From contig NZ_CP083350.1 in the NCBI RefSeq assembly GCF_020035535.1, positions 1,312,501-1,376,500 on the forward strand: 64,000 bases of DNA, in the 5' to 3' direction. The notes beneath the pieces were generated by a model. That model worked only from the letters and a program-made list of their open reading frames with translations, was not told the DNA's origin and made no database searches. Within the stretch, counting starts at the first letter, position 1, and each line of letters begins with the position of its first letter. This document shows positions 8,469-39,019 of the stretch, in pieces. This DNA comes from Ensifer adhaerens. GTDB lineage: Bacteria > Pseudomonadota > Alphaproteobacteria > Rhizobiales > Rhizobiaceae. A program made the position numbers and the translations under genes.

Positions 8469-8622
8469 CGTACGTCACCAGGCCGAGCGGCAGGCGCGGC
8501 CTTAGTTGACGACCTCCTGCGAGATGCCGGGTTTTTGCTGACTTTCAGAAACGCGAAATATCGAGGGCAGCAGATTAGATCTGAAGTTACCGGTTGCGGC
8601 TCTGAGCAGGTGGGTGGGAAGA

Positions 8623-9976: not shown

Positions 9977-10525
9977 TTAAACGTGCGCACCGCAGTTCAC
10001 AGAATGATTGGCCGGCATGTTTAGATAAGGTGAAATAAAGGCTGAGACGGTCTCGGCTAACACCCCGACCCTGACCTCGATACCACCGGCGCGCAACAGT
10101 TCGACGCCTTTGCCATTGTTACGTGGATCCGGATCCACCAGCGCTACAACAACGGCCTTCAATTTCCGTTCAAGCATAGAGATTGCGCAGGATGGGGCGC
10201 GGCCCCGGAATGCGCACGGTTCCAAAGTCACATAGGCTGTAACATCATCAAGGTCGCCGATAACCTGACTAAGTGCGTGAGCTTCTGCGTGGAAACCGCC
10301 AGGAGGATGAGTGAACCCTGTCGAAATTAGCTCGTTTTTCCTCACGAGTACGCAACCGACGGGAGGGTTCGGAATGCATCCTGGCAACGCTCCGCGCGAC
10401 GCGTCCAAGGCAAGCTTCATAAAGTATTCGTCCTGTGTGTGATCAGAAGCACCTACGTTGCCGCGATTCATTTTCAATCCCATTCTTTTAACGAGGGAGC
10501 GCACCTTCATCATGTCAGTGGTCAT
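9977..10525 (-). CDS. Stand-alone RibD-type cytidine-deaminase-fold protein
   Basis: Resembles the deaminase half of RibD, which deaminates diaminohydroxyphosphoribosylaminopyrimidine in riboflavin synthesis. Visible are PNPPVGCVLV, the zinc/proton-shuttle motif HAEAHA and the two-cysteine motif EPCAFRGRAPSC, so all zinc ligands are present. The protein stops at 182 aa: the C-terminal reductase domain that bifunctional RibD carries is absent, not frameshifted. No other rib gene is nearby. The start is uncertain; ATG 10525 gives a 20-residue basic leader, while ATG 10471 begins nearer to the conserved DEYFMKLAL. It faces the hydroxyglutarate oxidase convergently. Function could be riboflavin supply or deamination of another N-heterocycle. 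Confidence 0.8.
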   Translation of the reverse strand: MTTDMMKVRSLVKRMGLKMNRGNVGASDHTQDEYFMKLALDASRGALPGCIPNPPVGCVLVRKNELISTGFTHPPGGFHAEAHALSQVIGDLDDVTAYVTLEPCAFRGRAPSCAISMLERKLKAVVVALVDPDPRNNGKGVELLRAGGIEVRVGVLAETVSAFISPYLNMPANHSVNCGAHV

Positions 10526-10636
10526 CAGTGATCTTTCCGTCAGATTTTGTCTTGAACCCCGACCCTAGCGAAAAACACTGCTGCCCGCATCGCCCCTCAC
10601 TCGATGGGACACGATCCTTATACGTTCCGTAAGGCA

Positions 10637-10665
10637 AATGCGATTTTACGAAAGCGAGTCGCATT
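10637..10665. promoter_or_regulatory. Inverted repeat in divergent promoter
   Basis: AATGCGA (10637-10643) and TCGCATT (10659-10665), a perfect 7-bp inverted repeat with 15 bases between. It lies between the divergent RibD-like gene and the Liv-type binding-protein gene, so it is a candidate operator for either. Regulator unknown. Confidence 0.35.
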
Positions 10666-10778
10666 GTTGCGTATGACAAAAGTCAAAGATTGCAGAATTC
10701 TCCCGGAAACAAATTAAGACGCTCTTCAGATCGGCACAATCTGTCGCTCAGGGAGCATAAAAGGGGAGCAATACGCAG

Positions 10779-11942
10779 ATGAATTTCAATAGAATGATTA
10801 CGTTGGCAACTTGCGTCCTAGTTGCGGCAGCAGTGCCTTTCTCACAGTCAGTAGCGGAGGAAGCCTCCCCAATCCCAATTGGCGCGGTTAGTACTTTGAC
10901 AGGTTCCTTTAGTTTTCCAGAGGCTACTGCTGCGGCGCAGGCAGTATTCGACCGCGTCAATGAGAACGGTGGCGTGGGCGGCCGGATGATACAGTACACC
11001 GTAGAAGATGACCGCATGGACCCTAGTTCCGCTGCACAGGCGGCGCGCCGTCTGGTGGACGATGAAGGCGTATACGCTAACGTAGCCTCAGCCAGTCTAC
11101 TGGAATGCACGGCGAACGCCGGCTTCTACGAGTCGCGCGGTGTGTATTCGTTACAGGGAACGGGCGTCGACCCGGCGTGCTTCAATACTCCTAATATCTC
11201 ACCCGTGAATACGGGTCCCTACACGGGGCTTGTTGTCTCACTTTACTATGCAGCGGAGATCCTCGGGTTTGACAAGGTTTGTTCGTTTGCTACCGGCAAC
11301 CCAGTTCAACAGCCAGGCTGGGAAGCAGCGATAGCGCGTTACAATCGCGTAAGTAAGAAACCGCTCTTGGTAGACGAGCGAAACGTTGGAAACACGGACG
11401 ACATGACGCAGTTCGTGCTGAAGGCAAAGGGAGCAGGCTGTCAGGCCGCGGTGTTCGTGGGCATCGAGCCACAAGTGGTAAGCTGGATGCAATCGGTTGC
11501 CGCGCAAAATATCCAGGGCATCACTTGGATCTTTCTAACGCCTGCCTATACGTTAAAAGTCGCGGAGGTTCTCGGCGAGACGGGTGAGGGAATTTACGCC
11601 AACTCTGAATTCGAGCCGTTTCTTTCTAAGTCGCCAGCTCTGGAGGATTGGCAGAAACTCATGACGGAGCGGGATATCCCTGTGACTTCCTTCTCACAAG
11701 GCGGTTACCTTGCCGCAACGATTTTCGTCGACGTTCTCAAGAGCATCAACGGCGAAATCACTAGAGAATCCGTCTCCGATGCACTTCGTAAACTAGACCG
11801 CTACGAGACCCCTCTGATCGGGACTCCCTATTCTGTTGGGGAGAAGACGGAACATGCCTCCAACAGTTCCTCCAAGTTCGTGAAACTGGGAAATGGTGCC
11901 TGGGAAGTGGCGACGCCGGAGTTCGTCGTACTTCCAAATTAA
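10779..11942 (+). CDS. Branched-chain-type ABC substrate-binding protein
   Basis: Periplasmic receptor of the first Liv-type importer, Peripla_BP_6 fold, 387 aa. It has a Sec signal peptide of about 26 residues (cleavage near SQSVAEEA), then IPIGAVSTLTGSFSFP, the DDRMDPSSAAQAARRLV segment and a late SFSQGGYLAATIFVDVL helix. The ribosome site GGGGAGCAA precedes ATG 10779. Proteins of this family bind amino acids but also urea, amides and aromatic acids. The oxygenase cluster directly downstream on the same strand suggests the ligand is the substrate of that cluster; this is inference. Confidence 0.9.
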   Translation: MNFNRMITLATCVLVAAAVPFSQSVAEEASPIPIGAVSTLTGSFSFPEATAAAQAVFDRVNENGGVGGRMIQYTVEDDRMDPSSAAQAARRLVDDEGVYANVASASLLECTANAGFYESRGVYSLQGTGVDPACFNTPNISPVNTGPYTGLVVSLYYAAEILGFDKVCSFATGNPVQQPGWEAAIARYNRVSKKPLLVDERNVGNTDDMTQFVLKAKGAGCQAAVFVGIEPQVVSWMQSVAAQNIQGITWIFLTPAYTLKVAEVLGETGEGIYANSEFEPFLSKSPALEDWQKLMTERDIPVTSFSQGGYLAATIFVDVLKSINGEITRESVSDALRKLDRYETPLIGTPYSVGEKTEHASNSSSKFVKLGNGAWEVATPEFVVLPN

Positions 11943-12094
11943 TTGGGACCCATGGCCTCCTCTGCACCGCGCAGGGGAGGCGGTCCCCTGTTGCCATCCA
12001 CCGCGTCCGATCGCCTTGCGATCCGCTCATTTCACGCACCGCCGCTTGGATGATGTGCTCGTCTTCTGCCGGCGCTGCCAAAGGTGCAGAGCAT

Positions 12095-12952
12095 ATGCTT
12101 TCATATCTTTTGTCTGGCCTAATTCCGGGCTGCGCTTATGCGCTCCTGGCGATAGGCATCACCCTAACATACAAAACGCTTGGCGTTCTTAACTTCGCTC
12201 AGACAGCCATCGGTGTCTTCGGTGCTTACATCGGTCTTGAGATGGTAAGCGCCGGGATACCCCAGCCGTGGGCTGCGCTGATTGGTATTCTTGCTGGTGC
12301 AGCCGTGGGTGTCCTCGTTGGTGCTATCATGGTCGCGTGGTTCACCGGTTCAGACGTGCAAACAAAATCCTCGGTTACAATCGTTTTGATGCTCGGCATC
12401 TTCGCAGCGGGAGCGCGACTGTTCGGCGATGATCCGCGTGCGGCCCCCCGTCTGTTTCCAAATGCGAGCATTGAAGTGGCAGGCATATACTTCTCGATGA
12501 CCACGATCATTGGGTTGCTACTTGCGGCGGTCATCTCTGTGGCGCTCCAGGTGGCTCAAAAGAAGACACGCGTCGGAGTTATGATGAGCGCACTCGCAGA
12601 GCGTCCCGGCACCGCCCAACTTCTCGGCGTCCGCGTAGGGATGCTTTCGATGACGATCTGGGCTTTGACCGGCGCTCTTGCAGCTCTTGGTATCACCTTG
12701 ATCATGCCCACCAGACCAAGCAATTTCTTGGTACTGAGCCTTCTGTTGTTGCCGGCAATAGCGGCTTCGCTATTCGGTGTATTCAGGTCGATCTATCTCG
12801 CACTCATAGGCGGTTTGGTCCTAGGAATGATCGAAGCTCTGGCAACCTACTTTGAGACATTGGCGCCGTACCGCCAGGCGTTACCTTTTTTGGTGGTGCT
12901 TGCAACTCTCATATGGTCGCAACGCAAGGAGGTTTGGGATGCGGCACGGTAA
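12095..12952 (+). CDS. Branched-chain-type ABC permease LivH
   Basis: Inner-membrane permease, 285 aa. It starts with the typical LivH opening (first helix GLIPGCAYALLAIGITL) followed by YKTLGVLNFAQTAIGVFGAY, matching the family LxNFAxG region. Start ATG 12095 is chosen because the first membrane helix follows at once; the in-frame ATG at 12050 would add 15 residues without a better ribosome site. It overlaps the following fused gene by 14 bases. Confidence 0.87.
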   Translation: MLSYLLSGLIPGCAYALLAIGITLTYKTLGVLNFAQTAIGVFGAYIGLEMVSAGIPQPWAALIGILAGAAVGVLVGAIMVAWFTGSDVQTKSSVTIVLMLGIFAAGARLFGDDPRAAPRLFPNASIEVAGIYFSMTTIIGLLLAAVISVALQVAQKKTRVGVMMSALAERPGTAQLLGVRVGMLSMTIWALTGALAALGITLIMPTRPSNFLVLSLLLLPAIAASLFGVFRSIYLALIGGLVLGMIEALATYFETLAPYRQALPFLVVLATLIWSQRKEVWDAAR

Positions 12953-14648
12953 CAATTTTCATGTCGTAACCTTGCTTTCGTTGGTGGCGCTCGGGGGATT
13001 GTTTTGGCTTCCGCCGTATTTCGTCTTTCTCGCCACCACAGGGGTGTTGGTAGCTATCATGGTACGCTCACTGGGCGTTGTGACCGACCAAGCAGGGCTG
13101 ATTTCTCTGTGCCATATGACCTTTGCCGGAATCGGGGCGTGGGCAGTATGCTGGCTGAATATCCACATGCCCTCGATACCGTATATATTGACGCTCATCC
13201 TCGGAGCTGGAGCGGGGCTTTGCGCGGGTATATTGTTGGGGCTTCCGGCCCTGCGACTGCGGGGCTTGAACCTGGCGGCGATTACCCTGACCTTTGCCGT
13301 GGCCGTGGACGCTGTTTTCTCCACGAAAGGGTTTCCAGGCGGCAGTTCGATGCAGTCATTCAAGCGTCCTGGCTATCTCGCGGACGATTATGTCTTCCTC
13401 ACTTTCTGCATTGCGATGATGCTTTTGGTGATCGTCGGTCTGCGCCTAATATCTCGTAGCCGACTGGGAGCGTCTTGGGAGGCAATTCGATACTCGGAGC
13501 GTGCTACGGCGTCTATGGGAATTTCCGTGGCCCGGGCGAAATTGTCGGCGTTCGCGATCAGTGCGGGTATCGCTGGCTTGGTCGGAGGTCTCACGGCGTC
13601 GCAGTTGGGGATGCTGACATCTTCCAACTTCAGCCCCTTATCGTCACTGTCTCTATTCGCGCTTGCTATCTTCGCTGGTGGAAAATACTGGGAGGGGGCC
13701 ATAGTTGCTGGTCTACTCTCAGTGGGCGTGCCTGAGGTTCTAAGGCGTTTTGGTCTGCCACTGGACCTGGATGCAGTGATTTTTGCTATTGGCGCAATTG
13801 ACGCTCTTAGGAAGAGGACCAGCTTCGCAGGCGGGCTCCGACGCACACTGAAAATCCGGAAAAACCGGAAGGCTGCAGAAATCGCTAGACCGCCCGAAAC
13901 CGGGCTCGAAATCAACCGACTAGACAGCGCGCGCTTCCGCCTCGAAGTGGTTTCGAAGCTCGAGATAGCCGATCTCCGCGTAAATTATGGAAATGTAGTT
14001 GCTGTCGATCGATTTGGTCTTGCGTTAGAGCCAGGCTGCATCGCGGGCCTCGTGGGCCCTAACGGTGCAGGCAAGTCGACTATCATCGATGCGATAACGG
14101 GTTTTCTACCGCAGGCGACGGGGACGGTAAAGCTCGGCAATGTTGAGCTTATGCAACAAGGGCCGACTCTCCGCGCTCGGATAGGGATCCGGCGAACCTT
14201 TCAGCAAGGACGGTCCATACCGGAGTTGACGGTGGGACAATATTTGAGCCTTTCATCGGGAGGTGAGATGTCGGACGACGACATAGATCTAATTCTTGCC
14301 TTTTTGGACTGTCCGCCATCGAGCACGTTGATTTCGGAAATTGAAATTGGATTGAGACGATTGATTGAGGTCGCGGCAAGTCTATCCGCGCGGCCAAGGG
14401 TGTTACTACTAGATGAACCTGCGGCGGGGTTGTCCGCTGATCAATCAGCGACACTCGCCGAGCATATAGCAAGAATCCCGGAGGTTTTTGGCTGTTCAGT
14501 GCTGATCGTCGAGCACGACATGGATATCATTCGACGGGTTTGCAACAAGATCATCGTTGTGGATTTCGGAAGAGTCATAGCGGAGGGCAGCCCAGAGGAA
14601 GTCTTAGGCCAACCGCAAGTCCTCGAAGCTTACCTTGGAGCCGCATGA
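12939..14648 (+). CDS. Fused LivM permease and LivG ATPase
   Basis: One 569-aa polypeptide containing both a complete LivM inner-membrane permease (about residues 1-300, with VTDQAGLISLCHMTFAGIGAW near residue 45) and a complete LivG-type ATPase (about 340-569). The ATPase part has P-loop [10 protein letters not shown]-loop TFQQGRS, Walker [11 protein letters not shown] and the H-loop IVEHDMD. The signature motif is unusually altered: IEIGLRRLIEVAASLS stands where LSxGQ normally is. A strong AGGAGG lies 7 bases before ATG 12939, within the end of the livH gene. The fusion fixes the permease-ATPase stoichiometry. The same architecture recurs at 27491-29257. Confidence 0.9.
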   Translation: MRHGNNFHVVTLLSLVALGGLFWLPPYFVFLATTGVLVAIMVRSLGVVTDQAGLISLCHMTFAGIGAWAVCWLNIHMPSIPYILTLILGAGAGLCAGILLGLPALRLRGLNLAAITLTFAVAVDAVFSTKGFPGGSSMQSFKRPGYLADDYVFLTFCIAMMLLVIVGLRLISRSRLGASWEAIRYSERATASMGISVARAKLSAFAISAGIAGLVGGLTASQLGMLTSSNFSPLSSLSLFALAIFAGGKYWEGAIVAGLLSVGVPEVLRRFGLPLDLDAVIFAIGAIDALRKRTSFAGGLRRTLKIRKNRKAAEIARPPETGLEINRLDSARFRLEVVSKLEIADLRVNYGNVVAVDRFGLALEPGCIAGLVGPNGAGKSTIIDAITGFLPQATGTVKLGNVELMQQGPTLRARIGIRRTFQQGRSIPELTVGQYLSLSSGGEMSDDDIDLILAFLDCPPSSTLISEIEIGLRRLIEVAASLSARPRVLLLDEPAAGLSADQSATLAEHIARIPEVFGCSVLIVEHDMDIIRRVCNKIIVVDFGRVIAEGSPEEVLGQPQVLEAYLGAA

Positions 14649-15343
14649 TGGAAAACGATACGGAATTGGAGGTAAGGAACATCTCGGTCAACCGCCTGGG
14701 GCTTCCTGTAGTATCCAATGTCTCGCTGACCGCCCCGACTGGCGAAATGACAGTGCTACTTGGTGCGAATGGGGCCGGGAGAACCACTCTTCTAGAGGCG
14801 TTGTCAGGGGGCATCCCAATTGCTCACGGCAGTGCGAGACTCGGGGGCATCGAGTTGAACGGCGCGTCGCCACTAAAGAGAACAAGAGCGGGGCTGGGAC
14901 ACGTGGAGCAGGGGCGCACCGTCTTCTCAGAGCTAACAGTCGAAGAAAACCTGCTGGTTTGTCGGCCAAAGGAGCATATAAGCGCGGCGTTCACGTGGTT
15001 TCCGGAACTGTCTAAGCGCCGAAACACGAGGGCGGGAATGCTGTCGGGTGGCGAGCAGCAGTTATTGGTGATCGCGCGCGCGTTGTTATGCGCGCCGCGG
15101 GTACTTATGATCGACGAGATGTCTCTGGGTTTGGCGCCGATCATTGTTCGGCGGCTTTTGTCTACACTCAAAGAATTGGTGTCTGAAGGACTTGGTGTGC
15201 TTTTGGTCGAGCAGTTCGCTCATCTCGCACTGTCGTACGGCGACACTGCGTACGTAATGAGCGGGGGCAGAATTGTGCTCAAGGAAGAGTGCAAATCGCT
15301 GATCAAGACTCCCGAGCGATTGCACGAAGCTTACTTGTTTTAG
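14645..15343 (+). CDS. Branched-chain-type ABC ATPase LivF, P-loop Lys replaced by Arg
   Basis: Second ATPase of the importer, 232 aa. Its start overlaps the fused gene's stop (ATGATG at 14645). Signature LSGGEQQLLVIARALL, Walker B VLMIDEMSLGLAP and the LLVEQF switch region are intact. The P-loop reads GANGAGRTT, with Arg (codon AGA, residue 46 counted from 14645) in place of the invariant Lys that contacts the ATP phosphates. Walker B also has M in place of the usual P after DE. The protein may bind ATP weakly, leaving hydrolysis to the LivG site in the fused subunit. Everything else looks under selection, so I do not call it a pseudogene. Confidence 0.88.
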   Translation: MMENDTELEVRNISVNRLGLPVVSNVSLTAPTGEMTVLLGANGAGRTTLLEALSGGIPIAHGSARLGGIELNGASPLKRTRAGLGHVEQGRTVFSELTVEENLLVCRPKEHISAAFTWFPELSKRRNTRAGMLSGGEQQLLVIARALLCAPRVLMIDEMSLGLAPIIVRRLLSTLKELVSEGLGVLLVEQFAHLALSYGDTAYVMSGGRIVLKEECKSLIKTPERLHEAYLF

Positions 15344-15428
15344 GCAGCAGGTGCAGAAACGGCACCTCCGCAGCCGACCGCCGGTACGCGCGAGTAATTC
15401 TGGCTTCATCAATTATTGGAAACGAAAG

Positions 15429-16907
15429 ATGAGCAAGCAAGATTTTGCAATGTTCTCAGCGACCGAAACAGCACGATTGGTCAAACGGAAGGAAATCTCT
15501 CCTGTTGAGGTGGTCGAGAGCGCGATCGAACGGGTAGAGGCTGCTAACGGCGTCCTAAACGTCGTGATCCTGAAGGGCTATGAGGACGCTCGTCTGACTG
15601 CGCAGCGTCTCGAGCGTCGGCTTCTTTCAGGGGAGCCAACGGGTTTGATGGCAGGTGTGCCGACGCTGATGAAAGATCTCTTCAGCTTCAAACCGGGTTG
15701 GGCAAATACTCTTGGAGGCGTGAAAGCGCTCCGAAATTTCGTTCCCGATTTCTATAGTAACTTTGCTCACCGCATGGAGTCTGCGGATGCGATCGTTATC
15801 GGAAAGTCCAACAGTGCCACAATGGGCTTCGCCGGGACGACTGACAACAAGCTCTTTGGCCCGACGAAGAACCCTTTTAATCCGGCCCTAAATAGCGGCG
15901 GATCGTCCGGCGGCAGCGCAGCAGTTGCAAGCTTGATGGTCCCACTTGCGGAGGGATCGGATGCTGGAGGTTCAATACGCATACCATCATCGTGGTGCGG
16001 ACTGGTTGGATACCAACCCTCTTTCGGGGTATCGCCTATGGTTATGCGTCCCAACGCGTTTGGAGCGACTGCGCCGTTCATATTTGAAGGCCCGATGGCG
16101 AGATCGGTCCAAGACATTGCCCTTGCGATGCAAGTGCTTTCCGGAAAGAATGTGCAGGACCCCTACAATACTTCGTGCCCCGTAGATTTTGGCGCCGCGC
16201 TGCTACAATCGGTGGAAGGTATGCGAATAGGTCTCACGTTGGACTTTGGTGTTTTCCCGGTCGATCCACAAATTAGGACGCAGGTGGAGGAGGCCAGTCG
16301 GGCATTTACCGCCGCGGGCGCAATTGTTGAACCGATTTCGTTGAAGCTTCCCTATTCAGCCGTCGAACTCGCAGAGCTGTGGTGCCGAATGATATCCGCG
16401 GTTACTTTCGGTGCGCTGACGAATTTGGCAGAGAATGGTTTTGACCTTCTAGGCGAGCACTCCGACGATTTGCCTGACCAGCTGATTGCCTGGGTGGAAC
16501 GCGCTGAACGCATGACATTGAGGGAAATTCAGTCGGATCAAGCGATGCGGACTGAAGTGTTTGACACGCTGACGGCGGCGTTTGAGCACTTTGATTTCAT
16601 TTGCTCCCCAGTTACATGTTGCATGCCGGTACCGAACGCGGACGGCGGAGACACCGTCGGGCCGAACCATTTGTTGGAAACAACTCTCGAGCCGCGGATA
16701 GGCTGGGCGATGACCTTTCTTACCAACTTGACGGGAAACCCATCTGCGGTCCTTCCGACAGGTTTAGTAGCAGGTCTTCCGGTGGGCCTGCAATTGATTG
16801 GAAAGCGCAATAGGGATGTTGATCTGATCGCAGCGTGCGCGGCTTTCGAGAGGGCGCGGCCCTGGGCGTCCATCTACGCCGTTCCCGGTAAAGAGCGGCA
16901 TTTCTAA
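15429..16907 (+). CDS. Amidase (amidase-signature family)
   Basis: Hydrolyses an amide or anilide bond in the cytoplasm. 492 aa. The Ser-cisSer-Lys triad is readable: Lys82 in TLMKDLF, cis-Ser159 in GGSSGGS and nucleophile Ser182 in GSDAGGSIRIP. Start ATG 15429 follows GGAAACGAAAG; a frame from 15351 would add an unlikely basic leader. It lies 85 bases after livF and 374 bases before the Rieske oxygenase genes, all on one strand. In aniline dioxygenase clusters this position is held by a glutamine-amidotransferase-like protein that cleaves gamma-glutamylanilide. This amidase could do the same job, or could free an aromatic amine from an acylanilide. Family certain, substrate inferred. Confidence 0.9.
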   Translation: MSKQDFAMFSATETARLVKRKEISPVEVVESAIERVEAANGVLNVVILKGYEDARLTAQRLERRLLSGEPTGLMAGVPTLMKDLFSFKPGWANTLGGVKALRNFVPDFYSNFAHRMESADAIVIGKSNSATMGFAGTTDNKLFGPTKNPFNPALNSGGSSGGSAAVASLMVPLAEGSDAGGSIRIPSSWCGLVGYQPSFGVSPMVMRPNAFGATAPFIFEGPMARSVQDIALAMQVLSGKNVQDPYNTSCPVDFGAALLQSVEGMRIGLTLDFGVFPVDPQIRTQVEEASRAFTAAGAIVEPISLKLPYSAVELAELWCRMISAVTFGALTNLAENGFDLLGEHSDDLPDQLIAWVERAERMTLREIQSDQAMRTEVFDTLTAAFEHFDFICSPVTCCMPVPNADGGDTVGPNHLLETTLEPRIGWAMTFLTNLTGNPSAVLPTGLVAGLPVGLQLIGKRNRDVDLIAACAAFERARPWASIYAVPGKERHF

Positions 16908-17095
16908 TTAAGCGTCGCCGAGCATTCGTAAACAGCTGAATCAACGACGCTTGTAGTCTGCCTTACTGTTGCCTCCAAGCACCGTGGTAGGCATTGATCT
17001 GTCGGGCGATGGACCCGTTTCCGATCCGCCGACAAGCCGATCGAGTAACGCGTGGCGTCCGCATAGTAGCACATCTGCAAGATCGCTTTTGCAAG

Positions 17096-17113
17096 GCGGC
17101 AATACGTTGCCGC
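17096..17113 (+). terminator. Hairpin with tetraloop (possible attenuator/terminator)
   Basis: GCGGCAA (17096-17102), loop TACG, TTGCCGC (17107-17113): a perfect 7-bp stem closed by a UNCG-class stable tetraloop. No T run follows, so a simple intrinsic terminator is doubtful. Confidence 0.4.
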
Positions 17114-17180
17114 GAGTAGAGCGTGCAATCTGGCCGATCTATTGAGTAACTAACTGATTTTCCTACAAAAAGCGAAGCAT

Positions 17181-17190
17181 GCAAATTTGC
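17181..17190. promoter_or_regulatory. Palindrome GCAAATTTGC, candidate LysR operator
   Basis: Perfect 10-bp palindrome about 90 bases upstream of the Rieske oxygenase start, with an A/T centre as in LysR-type boxes. The LysR gene at 21902 is the natural candidate regulator. No second copy was found by eye, so this is tentative. Confidence 0.4.
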
Positions 17191-17281
17191 GTTTTGTTTC
17201 TGCATGTTTGACGTGGTTCGGTTCGCGGGTTTGACTTTAATGAAAACTGACATGCAGTTCGTATAGGGAGGTCGAAACAAC

Positions 17282-18637
17282 ATGGTCGAAAAAGTACTTG
17301 AGCGAACAGTAGTCCCGGGGCCGCTTGGTGCCAATTATGGCCGATATTTTCGAGACGGGGCAGTCCATCGCGATCTTTACATCAAAAAGCAGATCTTCGA
17401 TGACGAGATGAATTATCTCTTTGGAAATACGTGGGTTTTCATAGGCCACGAGACTGAATTGCCAAATCCAAACGACTTCATACGTCGCCGCATTGGCCGA
17501 CGACCAGTCATTTTCGTGAAGAAGGATGACGGATCCGTCGACGTACTCATTAATCGCTGTCCCCATCGTGGAGCCCTGATCTGCCGGTTCGAAAAGGGCA
17601 ATGCCAAGCGGTTCACATGCGGTTACCATGCCTGGAGCTTCGAGAACGACGGTTCGTGCGTCGCCATACCCCTTCGACATGCGTACGGGGATGATTTTAA
17701 GCTCGAAAACCACAGTCTTCTGAAGCCTGCGCGTGTCGAAAATTACCGCGGATTTGTGTTTGCGTCGATGACGCAGGATGTTCCCCCACTCAGGGAACAT
17801 CTCGCTGGAGCCGCGACCTACATCGATCAATGGCTCGATCGTGGCAACGGCGAAAAAGTTGTCGTCAACAATGGCGCTATGCGTTTCACCTCTCATTCAA
17901 ACTGGAAGACCGTGTATGACAACGCTGGTGATGGCTACCATCCACCGTTCTCGCACGAGTCGATGTTGAGGGTGTTCGCGCGACGTTACGGCGACGAAAC
18001 GGACATGTCCTATTTTCCTTCGGGAGCTGATGAAGGGCCGATCCCGTCGCGAGACCTTGGAAACGGCCATACTCTGATTGATCAACGGGTAGCGATGCAT
18101 TCAGAATCTGCTTGGGCCAGACAGCATGTACACCCGGGTCGCGAGGCGGCAGAAGCCGCGGTATTCGACAAATTCGGCCCCCAGGAGGGTAGGAAACTTC
18201 TTGACGCGTCCACAGGCGCTGGGATGAACCTTAGTGTATTCCCGAACCTGCTCTTCATCGGTAACCAGATTCAGATCGTGGAACCGGTGGCGGTGGATAA
18301 AACTGTCATCACGTTCTTTTCGACTTCATTGGAGGGAGGCGATGAGAACATCAATGCAACACGTATGAGAATGCAGGAGGATTTTCCTTCGTTCGGCGAA
18401 GTTGACGACACCGCACAATGGGAAAGTTGTCAGGAGGGAATGGAGACTGTTCCTGAACTCGAATGGATCGATATCAGTCGTCATATGAGAACGGGCGCTG
18501 GTTCGGTTGAGAGCGACGGTTACTATACTGAGCCGGTCACTTCCGATCTCCATATGCGTGTGTATTACGCCGAATGGAGCCGTGTAATGGAGCGCGCGAC
18601 CAGTAAGGGTGTTGGGGAGGACAATGTAAATGCATGA
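17282..18637 (+). CDS. Rieske non-heme iron ring-hydroxylating oxygenase, alpha subunit
   Basis: Catalytic large subunit of an aromatic-ring dioxygenase, 451 aa. The N-terminal Rieske domain has Cys93-x-His95 (CPHRG) and Cys113-x2-His116 (CGYH). The catalytic domain has Asn207 and the mononuclear iron motif with Asp217, His220 and His225 in DGYHPPFSH. A GGGAGG site precedes ATG 17282. It overlaps the beta-subunit gene by 8 bases, a hallmark of hetero-oligomeric (alpha3beta3) oxygenases. The GS-like gene and reductase downstream point to an aromatic amine as substrate by analogy with aniline dioxygenases (TdnA1, AtdA3). Anthranilate or benzoate-type substrates remain possible. Confidence 0.92.
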   Translation: MVEKVLERTVVPGPLGANYGRYFRDGAVHRDLYIKKQIFDDEMNYLFGNTWVFIGHETELPNPNDFIRRRIGRRPVIFVKKDDGSVDVLINRCPHRGALICRFEKGNAKRFTCGYHAWSFENDGSCVAIPLRHAYGDDFKLENHSLLKPARVENYRGFVFASMTQDVPPLREHLAGAATYIDQWLDRGNGEKVVVNNGAMRFTSHSNWKTVYDNAGDGYHPPFSHESMLRVFARRYGDETDMSYFPSGADEGPIPSRDLGNGHTLIDQRVAMHSESAWARQHVHPGREAAEAAVFDKFGPQEGRKLLDASTGAGMNLSVFPNLLFIGNQIQIVEPVAVDKTVITFFSTSLEGGDENINATRMRMQEDFPSFGEVDDTAQWESCQEGMETVPELEWIDISRHMRTGAGSVESDGYYTEPVTSDLHMRVYYAEWSRVMERATSKGVGEDNVNA

Positions 18638-19241
18638 TTTCGGTGCGGATGGTGCGCTCGCGGATACCGTTGATCTCGACTATTTCTCGATGGATTGGTA
18701 TGCGCGAGTACAATCGATAGTGCAATTCTGGAAAGAGTTGGACTCTATTCCGGAGGAGCTGCTGCCAACCCGAGAGGGTAGGGAGGCGGCTGAGCGTCTG
18801 TTGTTCGTGGAGGCACGTTTACTCGATCAGGAACGACTAGAGGAATGGCTCGGTCTGTACACGGACGACGCGGTGTACTGGATCCCTTCGGACAACGCCG
18901 AGCGTGATCCGCGCACGACCGTGAGCTGGGAAATGAATGACCGTCGCCGTTTGGAAGAGCGCGTGGAACGTTTGGCAACAGAGAGGGCCTATAGCCAGGC
19001 CCCGACCACTCGAACGGCGCACTTGTACACCAACATTGAGGTAATGGCGTTCAATTCGGACGTCATGCACGTTATGTGCAAATTCCTGATTCAGACCAGC
19101 CTGGTGGGAAAGCTGACTCCGCGTGCCGGATGGAACGGGTTCATCCTTCGAAAGGTCGACGATGAGTGGCGCATCGCAATGAAGCGTATAAGTCTGTTCG
19201 ATGCCGATCACCCGCAGGAAAACAATAGTTTCACGCTGTGA
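18630..19241 (+). CDS. Ring-hydroxylating dioxygenase beta subunit
   Basis: Small, non-catalytic structural subunit of the oxygenase (SnoaL-like cone fold), 203 aa, somewhat longer than many because of a 35-residue N-terminal extension. Typical elements are EARLLDQERLEEWLGLYTDD near residue 55, YWIPSD, and a C-terminal WRIAMKRISLFDAD. The start ATG 18630 overlaps the alpha gene, with GGGGAGG about 9 bases upstream. Together with 17282-18637 it forms the oxygenase component. Confidence 0.9.
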   Translation: MHDFGADGALADTVDLDYFSMDWYARVQSIVQFWKELDSIPEELLPTREGREAAERLLFVEARLLDQERLEEWLGLYTDDAVYWIPSDNAERDPRTTVSWEMNDRRRLEERVERLATERAYSQAPTTRTAHLYTNIEVMAFNSDVMHVMCKFLIQTSLVGKLTPRAGWNGFILRKVDDEWRIAMKRISLFDADHPQENNSFTL

Positions 19242-19269
19242 TCGGAACAATGTTGGGAGGATGGCAAAC

Positions 19270-20739
19270 ATGCTGAATGATGTAACAAACAACGATTTGG
19301 GAAGAACAAACTTCGTGGCCGTGACTGGGAGGGATACGGCGGAACGAAAAGAAAAATTGGCGGAAGTCCTTCGTATAATAGAGGAAAAGAGGCTAAAGGT
19401 CATCCGCGTCGGTTTTGTTGACGCCCACGGTATCGTACGGATACGCCCGATTGAAGCTTCACATTTCCAACAGGCAGCCCGCAACGGTGTACCGTTTACT
19501 ACGGCGGTGCTGGCCATGGACACAGGAAACTTCGTCTTTAAGCCCCTGTTCTCTCGCGACGGCGGCTTCGGGCATGAGGAAATGGGCGGAGCGGGTGACG
19601 TTCTAGGTCTCCCGGATCTGGGAACGTTCCGTGTATTGCCATGGGCGGATCGGACAGGCTGGGTGCTTTGCGATCTATTTATGTCCAATGGGCAGAGCTG
19701 TCCGTTTGATCCGCGCAGCTTAATGAAGAAGGCAATTAACTCGCTCAATAGTCGCGGATATTCCTATCTCGGCGGCATTGAAGTGGAGTGTCACGTATTC
19801 AGGATCACGGACCCCAGACTTAATCTGAGAGACCACACACAACCAGCACCGCCTCCCAGCGTTGAGCCGATTTCGCACGGCTTTCAACACATGTCGGATT
19901 TGGTTTATGACGAGGTCAATCCCATTATTGATCCCCTCCGCGACGTCCTACATCAACTAGGGTTGCCTCTGCGCACTATCGAATCTGAACTCGGACCGGG
20001 GCAGATCGAAATCACCTTCGATCCACTTCCAGATCTAGAATCCGCGGATTTGATGGCACTCGTACGTACCACGGTTAAGCAGCTTGCTAAACGTAGGGGC
20101 ATGGTTGCGTCGTTCATGGCAAAGCCGGGGCTGCCGAACGTGTTTTCGAGCGGCTGGCACTTGCACCAGTCACTCGTTGATATGAAAAGTGGGAAGAACT
20201 TGTTCTCCTCCAATGAAACTGTCTTGTCGCAGGTCGGGCTCAACTTTGTCGGCGGGATTCTGGAACATGTCCGGGCGGCCACCGCTTTCTCGAATCCAAC
20301 AATCAACGGTTACAAACGTCTCAACGCGAACCCTCTTACGCCTAAGCGGGCAGTGTGGTCGGTGGACAATCGGGCGGCGATGTGCCGGATCATTGGCGGG
20401 CCCGGACAGAAGTCGACCCATTTGGAAAACCGGTCCGGTGAACCAGCCGCCAACCCCTACTTGTATATGGCTAGCCAAATCTTTGCCGGCCTTGATGGGA
20501 CTGATCGAGAAATCGATCCAGGTCCGCCGCTTGATGATCCGTATGCCCAGGTTGAGAAGCCGCCATTGCCCGTCAGCCTGATGGAAGCGGTGGCCTCGCT
20601 AAATGACTCGACGTTCTTCCGCGAAACTTTGGGTTCGGAGTTCGTGGACTACTATGTTGCGATGAAACAACACGAGATCCAGCGTTTTCTGGCGGCCGTG
20701 ACGGATTGGGAGCACCTCGAGTACTTCGAGAACTTCTAA
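19270..20739 (+). CDS. Glutamine-synthetase-like gamma-glutamyl amine ligase
   Basis: ATP-dependent ligase of the GS fold, 489 aa, predicted to join glutamate to an amine. Visible elements: beta-grasp-type N-terminus (VGFVDAHGIVRIRP), then metal/glutamate residues in GIEVECHVF, the GPGQIEITFDP loop, GWHLHQSL with the metal-binding His, and NRSGEPAANPYLYMASQ with the phosphate Arg. I choose ATG 19270 because GGGAGG lies 9 bases upstream; ATG 19261 directly abuts it. Housekeeping GS is longer at the adenylylation loop and not found with Rieske genes. In aniline degraders the equivalent gene (tdnQ, atdA1) makes gamma-glutamylanilide, the true oxygenase substrate. PuuA or IpuC-like ligation of an alkylamine is the alternative. 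Confidence 0.88.
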   Translation: MLNDVTNNDLGRTNFVAVTGRDTAERKEKLAEVLRIIEEKRLKVIRVGFVDAHGIVRIRPIEASHFQQAARNGVPFTTAVLAMDTGNFVFKPLFSRDGGFGHEEMGGAGDVLGLPDLGTFRVLPWADRTGWVLCDLFMSNGQSCPFDPRSLMKKAINSLNSRGYSYLGGIEVECHVFRITDPRLNLRDHTQPAPPPSVEPISHGFQHMSDLVYDEVNPIIDPLRDVLHQLGLPLRTIESELGPGQIEITFDPLPDLESADLMALVRTTVKQLAKRRGMVASFMAKPGLPNVFSSGWHLHQSLVDMKSGKNLFSSNETVLSQVGLNFVGGILEHVRAATAFSNPTINGYKRLNANPLTPKRAVWSVDNRAAMCRIIGGPGQKSTHLENRSGEPAANPYLYMASQIFAGLDGTDREIDPGPPLDDPYAQVEKPPLPVSLMEAVASLNDSTFFRETLGSEFVDYYVAMKQHEIQRFLAAVTDWEHLEYFENF

Positions 20740-20744
20740 AAGAC

Positions 20745-20807
20745 GGGAGGCTCGCTCCCCTAACTGAGAGAAAGACAAGGGTCTGATGCTGACGAGGTGA
20801 CAGACCC
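20745..20807 (+). other. Two small hairpins between ligase and reductase genes
   Basis: GGGAG/CTCCC (20745-20749 with 20755-20759) directly after the ligase stop, then GGGTCTG/CAGACCC (20779-20785 with 20801-20807). Neither has a T run. They could set the relative expression of the reductase or stabilise the upstream mRNA. Confidence 0.35.
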
Positions 20808-20836
20808 CACTCTCTGCGACCCAAAATGGTAGAAAA

Positions 20837-21832
20837 ATGTTAGAAGCACCAATGAACTTGGGATCTGTAAATGGATCCTCAGACTTGCTGGATGTTGTGG
20901 TCACGCGGCGATCTCGCGAGACGGCATCCGTTGCTATGATTGAGTTTGCTAGCGCTACGGACGAGCTTCTGCCTCCATTTGCCGCCGGTGACCATGTTGA
21001 TGTCCATTTGGCGGAAGGACTAACCCGTCAATACTCGCTATGCAATGCGCCCGGTGAGCGTGATATCTATCGGCTAGGTGTGATGCTGGCAAACAAATCA
21101 CGCGGTGGTTCGCGGACGATGCATGCGCTAAAGGTGGGTGAAAAGTGTCGAATAAGTAGGCCTCGCAATGCGTTCCGGCTGCGAGAGGACGCGGCGAAAT
21201 CGATCCTGATAGGCGGTGGGATTGGCATCACGCCCCTAATGGCAATGGCTTATCGCCTGTCCGACCTCGGAGCCGCATTCGAACTTCACTACAGTGCGCG
21301 TTCCAAACTCCATGCGGCTTTTTATAAATCGCTAAGTAAGTCTCCGTTCGGAAGCAATATTCGTTGGCATTTTGATAACGCCGACGGGAAAACAACATTC
21401 AATCCGTATGAGTCGCTCGCTGACCCTTCTGACAGTGCGCACCTTTACGTCTGCGGGCCTAGCGGATTTATGGACTACATTCGGGAGAAAGCTGAAGAAC
21501 TTGGGTGGAAGCGCGAGAACGTCCACTACGAAACTTTTGAGGCCCTAGGTCCCGGTGCGGACGCGCGAGAGTTCGTCATACATGCCAAGCGAAGCGCCCG
21601 CGATATAACGGTCCGCGCAAATCAAACAGCGGCGCAAGCTCTCTCAGAAAGCGGAATGCGGATTTCGGTATCTTGTGAGCAAGGAATTTGCGGGACGTGC
21701 ATGGTTCCGTTGCTCGACGGCGAGGCCGATCATAAAGATTCTTACCAGACGCAAGCAGAAAGAACGGAGAATCCTCGGTTTGCGTTGTGCTGCTCACGGG
21801 CGATATCGAGCCGCATCGTGCTTGATATCTAA
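20837..21832 (+). CDS. Oxygenase reductase, phthalate dioxygenase reductase type
   Basis: Passes electrons from NAD(P)H to the Rieske oxygenase. 331 aa, domain order flavin-binding (QYSLCNAP, near residue 72), nucleotide-binding (LIGGGIGITPLMAMA and YVCGPSGFMDYI) and a C-terminal plant-type [2Fe-2S] domain with CEQGICGTC and a final Cys in ALCCSRA. The C-terminal position of the cluster places it in the phthalate/vanillate class, usually FMN-dependent. Known aniline dioxygenase reductases instead carry the cluster at the N-terminus, so this is a different electron-transfer solution. The ribosome site is weak; ATG 20852 is an alternative start. It lies 97 bases after the ligase gene. Confidence 0.9.
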   Translation: MLEAPMNLGSVNGSSDLLDVVVTRRSRETASVAMIEFASATDELLPPFAAGDHVDVHLAEGLTRQYSLCNAPGERDIYRLGVMLANKSRGGSRTMHALKVGEKCRISRPRNAFRLREDAAKSILIGGGIGITPLMAMAYRLSDLGAAFELHYSARSKLHAAFYKSLSKSPFGSNIRWHFDNADGKTTFNPYESLADPSDSAHLYVCGPSGFMDYIREKAEELGWKRENVHYETFEALGPGADAREFVIHAKRSARDITVRANQTAAQALSESGMRISVSCEQGICGTCMVPLLDGEADHKDSYQTQAERTENPRFALCCSRAISSRIVLDI

Positions 21833-21901
21833 GCTTTCAGACGTATACTTTTTTGAAAGGAGTCCGCTGAAGTGAATTGGCGGCTAGACTGAAGGCTTGA
21901 G

Positions 21902-22816
21902 ATGCAAAGCTGGGAGCTTGTGAGGGTTTTTCTCGCGCTGCAGAGGGCCCGTAGTTATGAGGGGGCGTCTCAGGCCCTAAATATGGATATCTCAACAGTC
22001 CGACGCAAGATACAGGCGCTTGAGAGTAGCATCGGCAGTAGCTTGTTTACCCGCGACTCCAACGGGATCGTTTTATTGCCCGAATGCGAGCATCTTTTGA
22101 ATGCGGCTCTCGATATGGAATCGGGCGCGACCCAGTTCCGATCGCATTCCGAAAAGATGAATGAGGAAGGCCTCGTTCGGATAACGGTACTCGATATTTT
22201 CGCGAGCTTAATCATCGATGGGATGAAGAGATTTCGTCACGAACACCCTGGCATTGTTTTGGATATCACGACCGAATCGCGGTTCGTCGATCTTGAAAAA
22301 GAGGGCGTCGACCTCGCTGTTAGGGCCGCCCGCCCGATACGGGGTTCGAGTGGAGTAAGAAAGCTAGCTGACATCCCGTTTGGTAATTACGTCTCGCGGG
22401 ACTACTTTGAGGCGAACAAAGATACTCCAAGGTGGGAGATGAGCGTTATCTCGATGGCTTCAGATTTTTGGCATCGGGATCACGAGTTTATGCTTGTGGA
22501 TGAGCGGCAAAAGCAGCTGTATCGGCAACCGGAAAACCTCACCTGCCGCGTGGACAGCTATATTCTACTTAGACAACTTTGCGAATCCGGTCTGGGTGTG
22601 GCGAAACTGCCAAAGTTTTTCGCCGAGCAAAGCCCGGGTCTGGTTCAGCTCGATAATGAATTTTGCAATATTGAGCTCTGGCTCGTACTCCGACAAGAAC
22701 TAGCGCGCTCAAAGCGGATCAAACAAACCATAAATTTCCTGGTGAAGGTCTTCTCAGACCATTCCTTTGCCAAAGGAACGCCTGTTCTGGCTAGTGCCGT
22801 TGAGGTGTACGGCTAG
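21902..22816 (+). CDS. LysR-family transcriptional regulator
   Basis: 304 aa. The N-terminal winged helix-turn-helix is clear (SYEGASQALNMDISTVRRKI, about residues 18-37), followed by a substrate-sensing domain with FASLIIDGMKRFRHEHP at the start of the first lobe. It has the short LysR layout common to local pathway regulators. It lies 69 bases after the reductase gene, in the same direction, and is the only regulator of the 10779-21832 block. It probably controls the oxygenase promoter; the palindrome at 17181-17190 is a candidate site. The IS1595-family element sits 34 bases behind its stop codon. Confidence 0.85.
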   Translation: MQSWELVRVFLALQRARSYEGASQALNMDISTVRRKIQALESSIGSSLFTRDSNGIVLLPECEHLLNAALDMESGATQFRSHSEKMNEEGLVRITVLDIFASLIIDGMKRFRHEHPGIVLDITTESRFVDLEKEGVDLAVRAARPIRGSSGVRKLADIPFGNYVSRDYFEANKDTPRWEMSVISMASDFWHRDHEFMLVDERQKQLYRQPENLTCRVDSYILLRQLCESGLGVAKLPKFFAEQSPGLVQLDNEFCNIELWLVLRQELARSKRIKQTINFLVKVFSDHSFAKGTPVLASAVEVYG

Positions 22817-22842
22817 TCGAGCATCGTCAGCACGCGGCGAGT

Positions 22843-22850
22843 GACTTTTG
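22843..22850 (+). repeat. Target-site duplication, left copy
   Basis: GACTTTTG, identical to 25536-25543, directly outside the left end of the insertion element. Eight bases is the duplication length known for IS1595-family elements. Confidence 0.85.
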
Positions 22851-22874
22851 CGGCATTAGGTAGCAAAAGCCACC
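22851..22874 (+). repeat. IS1595-type element, left terminal inverted repeat
   Basis: 24 bases beginning CGGCATTAGGTAGC and ending AAAAGCCACC. It is the exact reverse complement of 25512-25535. Confidence 0.9.
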
Positions 22875-22928
22875 AGACCTGAAATTGCATCCCGACTACC
22901 CTGGTTTCCGGTGAAAACGGAGCCTCGG

Positions 22929-23390
22929 ATGAGTGTAGCGTACGAGTTGAAGCAGAAGCGAGCCGCCTTGACTGACAGGCTGCAGCAGCTTGAAAGGGAG
23001 CGGGTAGACATTGAGGAGCTGATGAGAGCGCTGGACCGCGTCATCATGAGCTACGAGCCCGACTATCAGGGATCGGCGCTGACGGGACCTGAACAGGGTA
23101 ACCGCTCTCGAAAGGCCAAGCCGTCGTCGTCCGAGGTGAAAGCGGCCATGAACGGCGTAAACAAGCGCCAAGCCGTCTTGGAGGTCCTGCGCGAGGCAGG
23201 GGAACCGATTTCGGTGACCGACTGCGCAGCGAAGTTTGCAGTCAAGATCGGCATCGCGAGCGAGCCAGCCAATCTCTCAGACATCGCACACCGCCTGTCA
23301 GCGGTCCTTACCCAACTGACGACTGCGGGACGCGTTCGGCAGTCCGGCCAGTTCGACGGTCGTAAGGTTCTGTGGGAGGTCGCCGCTTAG
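22929..23390 (+). CDS. IS passenger protein: coiled coil plus winged-helix-like domain
   Basis: Unrecognised 153-aa protein inside the insertion element. The N-terminal 40 residues (KQKRAALTDRLQQLERERVD) are a strong coiled-coil candidate. A basic, serine-rich linker follows. The C-terminal 75 residues (RQAVLEVLREAGEPISVTDC to GRVRQSGQFDGRKVLWEV) look like a winged helix. It could be a DNA-binding accessory of transposition or a regulator carried as cargo. I choose ATG 22929; GTG 22911 in frame is an alternative. It converges on the transposase with a 4-base overlap of the gene ends. Confidence 0.65.
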   Translation: MSVAYELKQKRAALTDRLQQLERERVDIEELMRALDRVIMSYEPDYQGSALTGPEQGNRSRKAKPSSSEVKAAMNGVNKRQAVLEVLREAGEPISVTDCAAKFAVKIGIASEPANLSDIAHRLSAVLTQLTTAGRVRQSGQFDGRKVLWEVAA

Positions 23391-24412
23391 CCTTCCCAGA
23401 TCAGGTCCGGCGGCTTGTTGCCCTGCCAGTACCCACACAGATAGCGTGACGTCGGGCGAGACAGTGCCTGGCCCAGCACCTGGAACGTATGACTGCGATT
23501 GCTCACGTGTCGGCAATCCTCGCGCCATGCGAGCTCGGCCACGTACCAGTCGAAGTATTTCAACGAAAACCGATGGTGGATGCCGACATAGGCCCGTTGG
23601 ACCCGCGAGAAGAAACTCTCGACCTGGTTGGTGTTCGTGCCATCGTCGGTCTGATAGGCCTTTGAGTGGTTGACGCGCTCCAGCTTGTTCAAGCCAGCCA
23701 GGTCGTTATAGCTGCCATGCTCGTCAGCGAAGACCGTCGCCTCCCGCGACACGTGATCTCGAACGGCCGCCCAGGCTGCGTTGCTGTCTTCGTCTCGGAT
23801 GATCCGGGTGAACGTCTGGCCTCCCAGTCCGCGCTGGCGGATCGCAAGAGCGCACAGACGTTTCATGTTCTGGTTTTTCTTGAGGCGGCGGTCGATGCGA
23901 TCCTCGGCCTTGTTTTCAGGACGGATGTGGCCGCCAGCGTACTTGCCGTCAATCTCCACCTCGCCATCCAGCACCATCTCCTCCCTGCGCCAGGCGATCG
24001 CCTCGCGCAGCTTCATCAGGAGGACCCAGGCGGTCTTGTACTGAACACCGATCTCGCGCGAGAGCTGGAGCGCGGCCTTGCCTTTCACCGAGTTCGCCGA
24101 GAACCAGATGGCGATGAGCATCTTCTTGAAGCTTAGCTTACGTGCATGGAAGACCGTGCCTGAGGTGACGCTGAACACGGCCTTGCAGGTCTTCTCGGTG
24201 CACTTGAAGCGGTTGCGGCTCATCGTGTGGCACCGCACCGTCCCGCACTGGGGGCAGTAAGGCACGCCCTCCGTCTCGTGCCAGCGCAGGCGCTTAAACC
24301 AGTCGTAGGCTGTCGCATCCCGCATCTTGGCGAGATCGAGCACTGTCAGCGTTCGGCACTCTGGCGACAGCAGGAAGTGCTGGCCCTTGGGCGTATCTTC
24401 GGGGTTCGCCAT
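23387..24412 (-). CDS. IS1595-family transposase
   Basis: 341 aa. An N-terminal zinc ribbon (CPQCGTVRCH, then CTEKTC) precedes the ISXO2-like catalytic domain. The acidic residues are visible in VEIDGKYAGGH, VFADEHGSY and NQVESFFSRVQR, followed by the family ending SLKYFDWYVAELAWRED. Start ATG 24412 is clear. The frame is intact, so the element may still be mobile. The terminal repeats and 8-bp duplication support the family assignment independently. Confidence 0.93.
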   Translation of the reverse strand: MANPEDTPKGQHFLLSPECRTLTVLDLAKMRDATAYDWFKRLRWHETEGVPYCPQCGTVRCHTMSRNRFKCTEKTCKAVFSVTSGTVFHARKLSFKKMLIAIWFSANSVKGKAALQLSREIGVQYKTAWVLLMKLREAIAWRREEMVLDGEVEIDGKYAGGHIRPENKAEDRIDRRLKKNQNMKRLCALAIRQRGLGGQTFTRIIRDEDSNAAWAAVRDHVSREATVFADEHGSYNDLAGLNKLERVNHSKAYQTDDGTNTNQVESFFSRVQRAYVGIHHRFSLKYFDWYVAELAWREDCRHVSNRSHTFQVLGQALSRPTSRYLCGYWQGNKPPDLIWEG

Positions 24413-29257: not shown

Positions 29258-29258
29258 A

Positions 29259-30293: not shown

Positions 30294-30354
30294 AGGAAGT
30301 AGGCGTCCCCGATGTTGAGGCGTCGAAGCGGGAGAAGTTCTGGGAATGATCTAA

Positions 30355-31488: not shown

Positions 31489-31596
31489 TGTTTCATCCCT
31501 CATATAGTTCTTCGGGCGTGCTATGGAGCCCGTTTGGTGGTTGATTTATCGGAAGCAAGGCTGTGCGCGGCCCCCGAGCAGGCCGAGTTGTCTAAG

Positions 31597-32232: not shown

Positions 32233-32289
32233 ATCAAGCGTTCCCACGAAAATTCTGGGGCAATATCGCTGCGTGTTCCAACGTGAGTC

Positions 32290-32313
32290 CAATATCTCGT
32301 GTGAACGATATTG
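32290..32313. promoter_or_regulatory. Inverted repeat in the flavin reductase/RidA divergent promoter
   Basis: CAATATC (32290-32296) and GATATTG (32307-32313), 7 bp perfect with a 10-base spacer. A further CAATATC occurs at 32261-32267. The LysR gene at 34468 is the nearest candidate regulator. Confidence 0.4.
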
Positions 32314-32458
32314 ATATGTTCATCAAACTGTAGGTCTTTCATATCTCCTGCCGTCTCAATTTACCCCATGATTGATATTTTACGCACGCCATGGGGGCCT
32401 GTACGTTTGGTCTGCGCTCGCGCAATTTCCTGATGGACATATTTGAGAAGGGCCACCA

Positions 32459-32878: not shown

Positions 32879-32909
32879 GTTGGGCGACGAAAATCTAAGG
32901 AAATCTAAA

Positions 32910-34370: not shown

Positions 34371-34378
34371 TTTGCGAA

Positions 34379-39015: not shown

Positions 39016-39019
39016 CTCG

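Follow-up and report, generated by a model that had tools for sequence, protein, structure and literature searches.

A two-module locus of Ensifer adhaerens, putatively for the use of anilides, with an aryl-acylamidase-type enzyme and an aniline-dioxygenase-like cluster without a T gene

In the closest described systems, the clusters tdnQTA1A2B, atdA1-A5 and npaA1-A5, the genes follow the order ligase-T-alpha-beta-reductase, that is, a glutamine synthetase (GS)-like ligase, an amidotransferase-like protein (TdnT/AtdA2/NpaA2, here T), the two subunits of a Rieske oxygenase, and a reductase. The T-type enzyme hydrolyzes gamma-glutamylanilide back to aniline (PMC11335346, citing Takeo 2013), and NpaA2, likely similar to T, was dispensable for 1-naphthylamine conversion in P. 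putida (PMC11335346). Here we analyzed a 64,000-nucleotide stretch of the Ensifer adhaerens genome (8.1 Mb in 3 contigs), C2:1312501-1376500 on contig NZ_CP083350.1 (hereafter the window), in which an earlier note had described an amidase, Rieske alpha and beta subunits, a GS-like ligase, and a reductase on one strand beside a Liv-type importer and a LysR-type regulator. This layout was borne out by coordinates, Pfam matches, and motifs; all five reading frames are open, lie on the + strand, and agree in their coordinates with the earlier description (Table 1). The locus is real and probably functional for an anilide or arylamine, as far as its sequence indicates, and we lean toward reading it as a two-module locus for the use of an N-acyl arylamine (anilide).

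In a ligase tree of 30 rows, which included TdnQ, NpaA1, the PBL-H3 ligase, E. coli PuuA, GlnA, and six paralogs from the source genome, the window ligase fell inside a 22-row clade together with TdnQ, the PBL-H3 ligase, and NpaA1 (support 100/99); PuuA, GlnA, and the six paralogs lay outside. It is 39–45% identical to TdnQ, NpaA1, and the ligases of YBL2, CSW02, and PBL-H3, versus 24.7% to PuuA and 29.7% to GlnA. An assignment to PuuA or housekeeping GS was rejected on this placement, and the phylogenetic check proposed in the earlier note came out on the side of TdnQ and NpaA1. With the ligases of six sister loci (L001-L006), the window ligase forms a seven-row subclade of its own (99/100); a seventh sister, L099 of genome G1479, was placed by identity only. 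The best PDB match is 8wwu; we equate this entry with the NpaA1 enzyme of Pseudomonas JS3066 (PMC11335346), a link of our own making. Relative to NpaA1, the window enzyme has kept Glu232 and Glu234 of the amine site, Phe86, and the extra N-terminal loop that is a feature of GoaS enzymes (PMC11335346).

The oxygenase alpha subunit points the same way by identity. It retains the Rieske and iron-site motifs (CPH...CGYH, DGYHPPFSH, and EVDD), and a stretch RMRMQEDFP resembles that of aniline-type alphas, with the motif pattern kept. Identities are 43.5% to TdnA1, 45.9% to NpaA3, and about 46% to TdnA1-type proteins on plasmids, compared with 32.4% to AntA5 (AntA-type) and 25.2% to HcaE; the alphas of sister loci L001-L006 are closer still (50.2–60.6% in one comparison and 53–63% in another; 61% for G1479) and form with it a seven-row clade supported at 100/100. 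By identity, then, the alpha subunit is nearer to TdnA1/NpaA3 than to the AntA type, as the earlier note had asked to see compared, and a single aniline-type alpha clade including TdnA1 and NpaA3 appears likely from these sequences.

With the described systems (pTB30, pJS3066, PBL-H3, YBL2, and a canonical ligase-T-alpha-beta-reductase-LysR cluster in G1122, a genome of the same family as the source), the locus shares the wide ligase clade, the Rieske alpha and beta subunits, and a reductase with a C-terminal [2Fe-2S] domain as in TdnB; a LysR gene is also present in pTB30 and G1122. It differs in gene order (alpha-beta-ligase-reductase), in lacking T, in its phthalate-type reductase, in its own ligase subclade, and in having an amidase and an importer attached. 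It would work in the manner of the aniline and AP-1 paracetamol pathways, but with neither T nor a TdnB-type reductase present, we do not count it among the tdn/atd systems in the strict sense. The reductase was rightly assigned in the earlier note to the phthalate type: it matches phthalate dioxygenase reductase 2pia, two P450 fusion proteins scoring slightly higher. The C-terminal [2Fe-2S] domain, which had been put forward as the contrast to known systems, is not one, since TdnB has the domains FAD, NAD, and C-terminal Fer2 (residues 252-325). FAD_binding_6 was detected in TdnB and not in the window reductase, whose identity to the reductases of L008, L009, L010, and L014 is 21–28%; the two types differ in subfamily and not in the position of the [2Fe-2S] domain. 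Relatives of the window reductase adjoin sister clusters L004 (38%) and L099 (about 41–42%) and were not found in the examined stretches of L001, L002, L003, L005, and L006. LysR relatives occur beside L004 (35%), L005 (36%, partial), and L099 (44% over residues 3-171), so that L004 and L099 share both the reductase and the LysR type of the window.

The gene order alpha-beta-ligase is common to the window and the seven sister clusters, and the sisters vary with respect to T. A T-like gene directly follows the ligase in L003 and L006 and lies about 6 kb away in L004; none was found on the 12.5-kb contig of L001, the 7.7-kb contig of L002, or the stretches examined of L005 (18.6 kb) and L099/L100 (32 kb). 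Within the window and its flanks (L058, L049, L050), 11 T-type queries including PuuD gave no tblastn match at E<=1e-3. Elsewhere in the genome, seven matches to TdnT at E<=1 are glutamine amidotransferase (GATase)-like proteins, none of them near the locus; the best by E is 32% identical over residues 33-196, and the seven reach 36–37% to the T-type proteins encoded in two clusters from actinobacteria. A dedicated T gene elsewhere in the genome was rejected on these grounds, and a generic GATase could, by its similarity, still serve as T. The T proteins of L003, L004, L006, L007, L010, L039, L073, and L075 are only about 25–56% alike among themselves, as if the T role had been filled by repeated recruitment of generic GATases. 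The earlier note had placed T between glutamylation and ring oxidation, cleaving gamma-glutamylanilide before the Rieske enzyme acts. This order does not hold: T undoes the glutamylation step and conversion went ahead without NpaA2 (PMC11335346), so that nothing needs to replace T. The broader claim of an aniline-dioxygenase-like variant, with a GoaS-type ligase and a Rieske oxygenase and no T gene, is supported.

The best PDB match of the amidase is the aryl acylamidase 4yj6 (AAA), with the next different molecule at E 6.6e-46. In a tree of 20 rows, including 10 plasmid amidases and six paralogs from the source genome, it groups with the 10 plasmid amidases (99/97), and the paralogs stay outside; the amidase of the CSW02 plasmid, 47.7% identical to it and matching 4yj6 at E 1.1e-287, belongs to its clades with 98/96 and 99/97. 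Grouping with the other amidases of this genome was thereby rejected, as the six aligned of 14 other own matches (one, L081, being incomplete) fall outside the AAA clade. The catalytic motifs Lys82, GGSSGGS, and DAGGSIRIP are present, which we take to be those of the Ser-cisSer-Lys triad of amidase-signature enzymes. The amidase belongs to the AAA clade, shared clade and motifs being the points of likeness to 4yj6, and hydrolysis of N-acyl arylamines is predicted. GatA hydrolyzes the gamma-amide of glutamine, in which the Asp of its motif MYLxD presumably has a role. Arg334 of yeast GatA (R334) recognizes the substrate (PMC4027206); from its spacing to E330, it would be the second Arg of the motif EVKRR. 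In an alignment of nine AAA-type and four GatA-type sequences, neither glutamine-site motif occurs in the window amidase or in any of its 8 AAA-type relatives (0/8). In a separate comparison, MYLSD of GatA 3h0l likewise faces RIGWA in the window amidase. Five GatA-type sequences matched EVKRR and four were aligned; as EVKRR served for their selection, only MYLxD (4/4) is independent. A GatA assignment was rejected on the missing motifs and the AAA clade placement; the missing motifs argue against gamma-glutamyl amides as substrates without fully excluding them. Where the earlier note had left the choice between a gamma-glutamyl and an acyl amide, the evidence favors the acyl amide.

On this basis, a pathway can be sketched in which the Liv-type ABC importer would take up an anilide and the aryl-acylamidase-type enzyme would split it into an arylamine and a carboxylic acid, ahead of the ligase step (module 1). 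In module 2, comprising alpha, beta, ligase, reductase, and LysR, the GS-like ligase would couple the arylamine to the gamma-carboxyl group of glutamate at the expense of ATP, and the Rieske oxygenase, with electrons from the phthalate-type reductase, would dioxygenate the gamma-glutamyl arylamide to a catechol-type product with release of the nitrogen; T would simply be absent from the pathway. Gene content and order, clade membership, and active-site motifs are established by the sequence, whereas substrates, direction of flow, regulation, and transcription units are inferred. Cleavage of the product may then fall to enzymes whose genes lie on other parts of this contig. The genome holds seven intradiol dioxygenase matches, all outside the window, in keeping with the earlier claims that the window has no ring-cleavage dioxygenase and that further processing takes place elsewhere; no search of this genome for extradiol families was made. 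Among the seven is a catechol 1,2-dioxygenase, CatA, at C2:943 kb (TIGR02439, 448 bits, cut-off 392), beside benzoate/anthranilate-type genes. Two more, below the catechol cut-off, lie at C2:1394-1399 kb, about 18–22 kb beyond the window, and are presumed to be of the hydroxyquinol type; the iron alcohol dehydrogenase accompanying them may be a maleylacetate reductase. With ring-cleavage genes present, the product of ring oxidation can be handled, by one or the other of these candidate routes. A gamma-glutamyltransferase is also encoded in the window (52753-54546, - strand; TIGR00066 above cut-off) and might cleave gamma-glutamyl arylamides.

Individual parts of such a route have been described. 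Paracetamol is hydrolyzed by AAA, ApaH1, ApaH2, and other amidases, with AAA sharing a similarity cluster with ApaH1 and Mah, and 4-aminophenol can be converted to gamma-glutamyl-4-aminophenol by an N-glutamylanilide synthetase (PMC11887370). The acetaminophen pathway of Pseudomonas taiwanensis AP-1 (ApaH1/ApaH2, ApdB, ApdC, ApdD1D2E) likewise combines an amidase, an N-glutamylanilide synthetase, and further enzymes, as described there. An amidase of an isolate, encoded beside an AmiS/UreI transporter, is reported to be 85% identical to an aryl acylamidase that converts paracetamol to 4-aminophenol and acetate (PMC9420511). An amidase step precedes aniline dioxygenase in alachlor breakdown (PMC11446756), and amidase and multicomponent dioxygenase genes are described for linuron breakdown (PMC10974035). 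Among the matches listed from the open-licence literature, none described the combination of amidase, glutamylation, and Rieske oxygenase with an importer in its title or the start of its abstract; subscription journals were mostly outside this search.

Several observations weigh against joining the two modules into one pathway, and they bear most directly on the alternative that amidase and importer are an unrelated amide-uptake unit bordering an oxygenase cluster that handles the free amine alone. The amidase is absent from the examined stretches at all seven sister loci; in the genomes of L001-L006, some of them fragmentary metagenome-assembled genomes, no AAA-type amidase was found (best match 175 bits at 32% identity, compared with 525 bits for the CSW02 plasmid), nor in G1479 (best match 124 bits). 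The amidase is hence not part of the conserved core. The 374-bp gap before alpha may separate an importer-amidase transcription unit from the oxygenase module. Amidases of this clade also occur beside Liv-type importers in the absence of a Rieske oxygenase or GoaS ligase, as in M382 and Paenarthrobacter. At seven of the ten amidase loci on plasmids (Ensifer, Agrobacterium CFBP6626, R. qingshengii TG-1, Thermomicrobium, M382, Paenarthrobacter, and pYKAZ004), the stretches examined, short of the whole records, contained neither a GoaS ligase nor a Rieske oxygenase, and around the amidase of G564 none was recognized by eye within 20 kb. On the other side, amidase and alpha are both rare, yet stand next to each other in the same direction. 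Alpha has matches at E<=1e-90 in 3/396 other genomes of the order (39–41% identity), 2/393 of the family (61% and 50%), and 0/15 other genomes of the genus, and at E<=1e-100 in 1/397 of a phylum sample (46%), evidently the PBL-H3 record and not a new one; for the AAA-type amidase, 1/384 other genomes of a class sample gave a match at E<=1e-115 (G564). The adjacency of two such genes and an importer suggests a shared substrate, chance being an unlikely cause, and glutamylation after an amidase step has been reported (PMC11887370). We hold an unrelated uptake unit to be unlikely, although it deserves to be taken seriously.

Related amidases also lie near arylamine-type or importer genes elsewhere, which we count in favor of the anilide reading. 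The CSW02 plasmid carries its amidase with AmiS, where the window has a Liv-type importer; a ligase-T-alpha-beta-reductase set lies about 21 kb away, and a maleylacetate reductase is encoded on the same plasmid. In CS98 and Prescottella WH99 (L039 and L040), an AAA-type amidase precedes the GoaS ligase by 6–7 kb; the ligase itself stands in a row of T-type GATase, AmiS, a different amidase, GoaS ligase, and acetate-CoA ligase (L039 19853-26352, L040 18374-24883). This actinobacterial plasmid row looks like a pathway for acetylated amines, and the stretch has no annotated Rieske oxygenase. A known GoaS ligase is found on the same stretch or plasmid as the amidase at only three of the ten plasmid loci, L039, L040, and L041. 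On plasmid pC of Ensifer M8, two LigB dioxygenases, RidA, and a 2-hydroxymuconic semialdehyde dehydrogenase are encoded 4–8 kb from an amidase of 51% identity, on the other strand. At M382 and Paenarthrobacter, the related amidase directly adjoins the importer.

The earlier note had the amidase standing in for T, that is, hydrolyzing the gamma-glutamyl arylamide and so controlling the level of the intermediate. The missing T gene in window and flanks and the position of the amidase next to the oxygenase genes would fit this idea, but the amidase sits in the aryl-acylamidase clade and lacks EVKRR and MYLxD, T was dispensable in the tested system, and sisters L005 and L099 show neither T nor an amidase in the examined stretches. 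With T not found near 4/7 sisters and an amidase near 0/7 in those stretches, replacement of T by an amidase is not a pattern of this branch, and we regard it as very improbable for the window too. A different doubt concerns the amine. Ligase and oxygenase might act on an aliphatic or heteroaromatic amine, the amidase cleaving the matching amide, a view that overlaps with an anilide pathway rather than excluding it. It draws on the residues in which the ligase departs from NpaA1, namely Met75 and Leu235 in place of Phe75 and Trp235, together with His201 (Val81 differs as well); since Met75 is shared with PuuA, the ligase residues do not prove an aromatic amine substrate. A further case in point is the M. 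nodulans ligase of the same wide clade, which adjoins an unrelated alpha (19.6% identity). The trees also have their weaknesses: in the alpha tree the deeper forks are not settled, the bootstrap did not converge, and several branches are long, and in the ligase tree the program warned of long branches for PuuA and several paralogs, although there the identities agree with the placement. Against a non-aniline amine, the aniline enzyme AtdA1 is likewise without Trp235 (PMC11335346), and the motif pattern of alpha is that of the aniline type. We consider a non-aniline substrate distinctly unlikely, and the two-module anilide pathway remains the reading we favor. Taking that pathway further, one might imagine a T-free branch, equipped at one locus with an importer and a hydrolase for anilides, whose evolution was driven by natural anilides and not by industrial anilines, with uptake and hydrolysis, rather than back-hydrolysis of the gamma-glutamyl compound, metering the arylamine; acylated aminophenols from plant benzoxazinoids would presumably be examples of such substrates. 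This extension is a long shot.

Table 1. Features of the proposed anilide locus (window coordinates).
Feature	Position	Strand	Evidence
Periplasmic substrate-binding protein, Liv/HAAT-type importer	10779..11942	+	PF13458 E 2.4e-51
LivH-like importer permease	12050..12952	+	weak NCBIfam LivH/UrtB matches
LivM/LivG-like permease fused to ATP-binding domain, start uncertain	12852..14648	+	LivG/UrtD matches, residues 370-597
LivF/UrtE-like second importer ATP-binding protein	14645..15343	+	UrtE E 1.2e-52, LivF E 1.2e-47
Amidase-signature enzyme, aryl acylamidase clade, proposed anilide hydrolase	15429..16907	+	PF01425 E 1.9e-82; 4yj6 E 6.2e-156
Amidase-alpha gap, 374 bp	16908..17281	.	sequence
Rieske oxygenase alpha, aniline-dioxygenase-like	17282..18637	+	Rieske E 4e-18, Ring_hydroxyl_A E 9.4e-12
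Rieske oxygenase beta	18630..19241	+	PF00866 E 1.7e-24
GS-like putative gamma-glutamyl arylamide synthetase, GoaS/TdnQ type	19261..20739	+	PF00120 E 2.9e-83; 8wwu E 1.1e-107
Phthalate-dioxygenase-reductase-type electron carrier	20837..21832	+	Fer2 at residues 251-321; 2pia E 8.7e-51
LysR-type regulator	21902..22816	+	PF03466/PF00126

Apart from the gap before alpha, the spacings are 85 bp between importer and amidase, 19 bp from beta, which overlaps alpha by 8 bp, to the likely ligase start (ATG 19261 being likelier than 19201), 97 bp between ligase and reductase, and 69 bp between reductase and LysR. Within the gap, a perfect palindrome, GCAAATTTGC, at 17181-17190, 91 bp before the alpha start, is a possible LysR-type operator. 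Promoter- and terminator-like sites in 10500-23400 numbered 4 and 14, compared with 7.7 and 13.4 in shuffles, and thus showed no excess. The binding protein and first permease of the importer had no match at 7/7 sister loci, L005 and L006 giving only 21–31% in ABC ATPase domains; Liv-type importer genes also lie near ligase-alpha-beta clusters of other branches in L060 (by eye) and L011 (by annotation). Further along the window, 26748-43638 contains two more Liv-type importer sets (by eye), making this a region rich in uptake modules, along with a flavin reductase, a RidA-type protein, an AMP-binding ligase, and an aldehyde dehydrogenase (the last by eye). Immediately 5' of the importer, on the opposite strand, is a stand-alone RibD-like zinc deaminase domain (9977-10525, -; PF00383), and two genes 5' of the importer binding protein an L-2-hydroxyglutarate oxidase (8614-9858, +; NCBIfam equivalog, 596.5 versus 299 bits). 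Directly 3' of LysR, at 22911-24412, a 159-aa orphan open reading frame without a Pfam match is followed by an IS1595/ISXO2-type transposase on the other strand, possibly a mobile border of the locus.

The general chemistry discussed here is already known, and the gain lies in a variant and not in a new principle. The aniline-dioxygenase-type branch described here is set apart by its gene order, by a T gene that is often not found nearby, and by a different reductase subfamily (at the three loci where one was found). A single locus may encode uptake, unmasking, glutamylation, and ring oxidation of an anilide together. If its substrate were confirmed, the locus would be a compact source of enzymes for anilide drugs and herbicides, and would offer a test case from nature for the need of back-hydrolysis by T.

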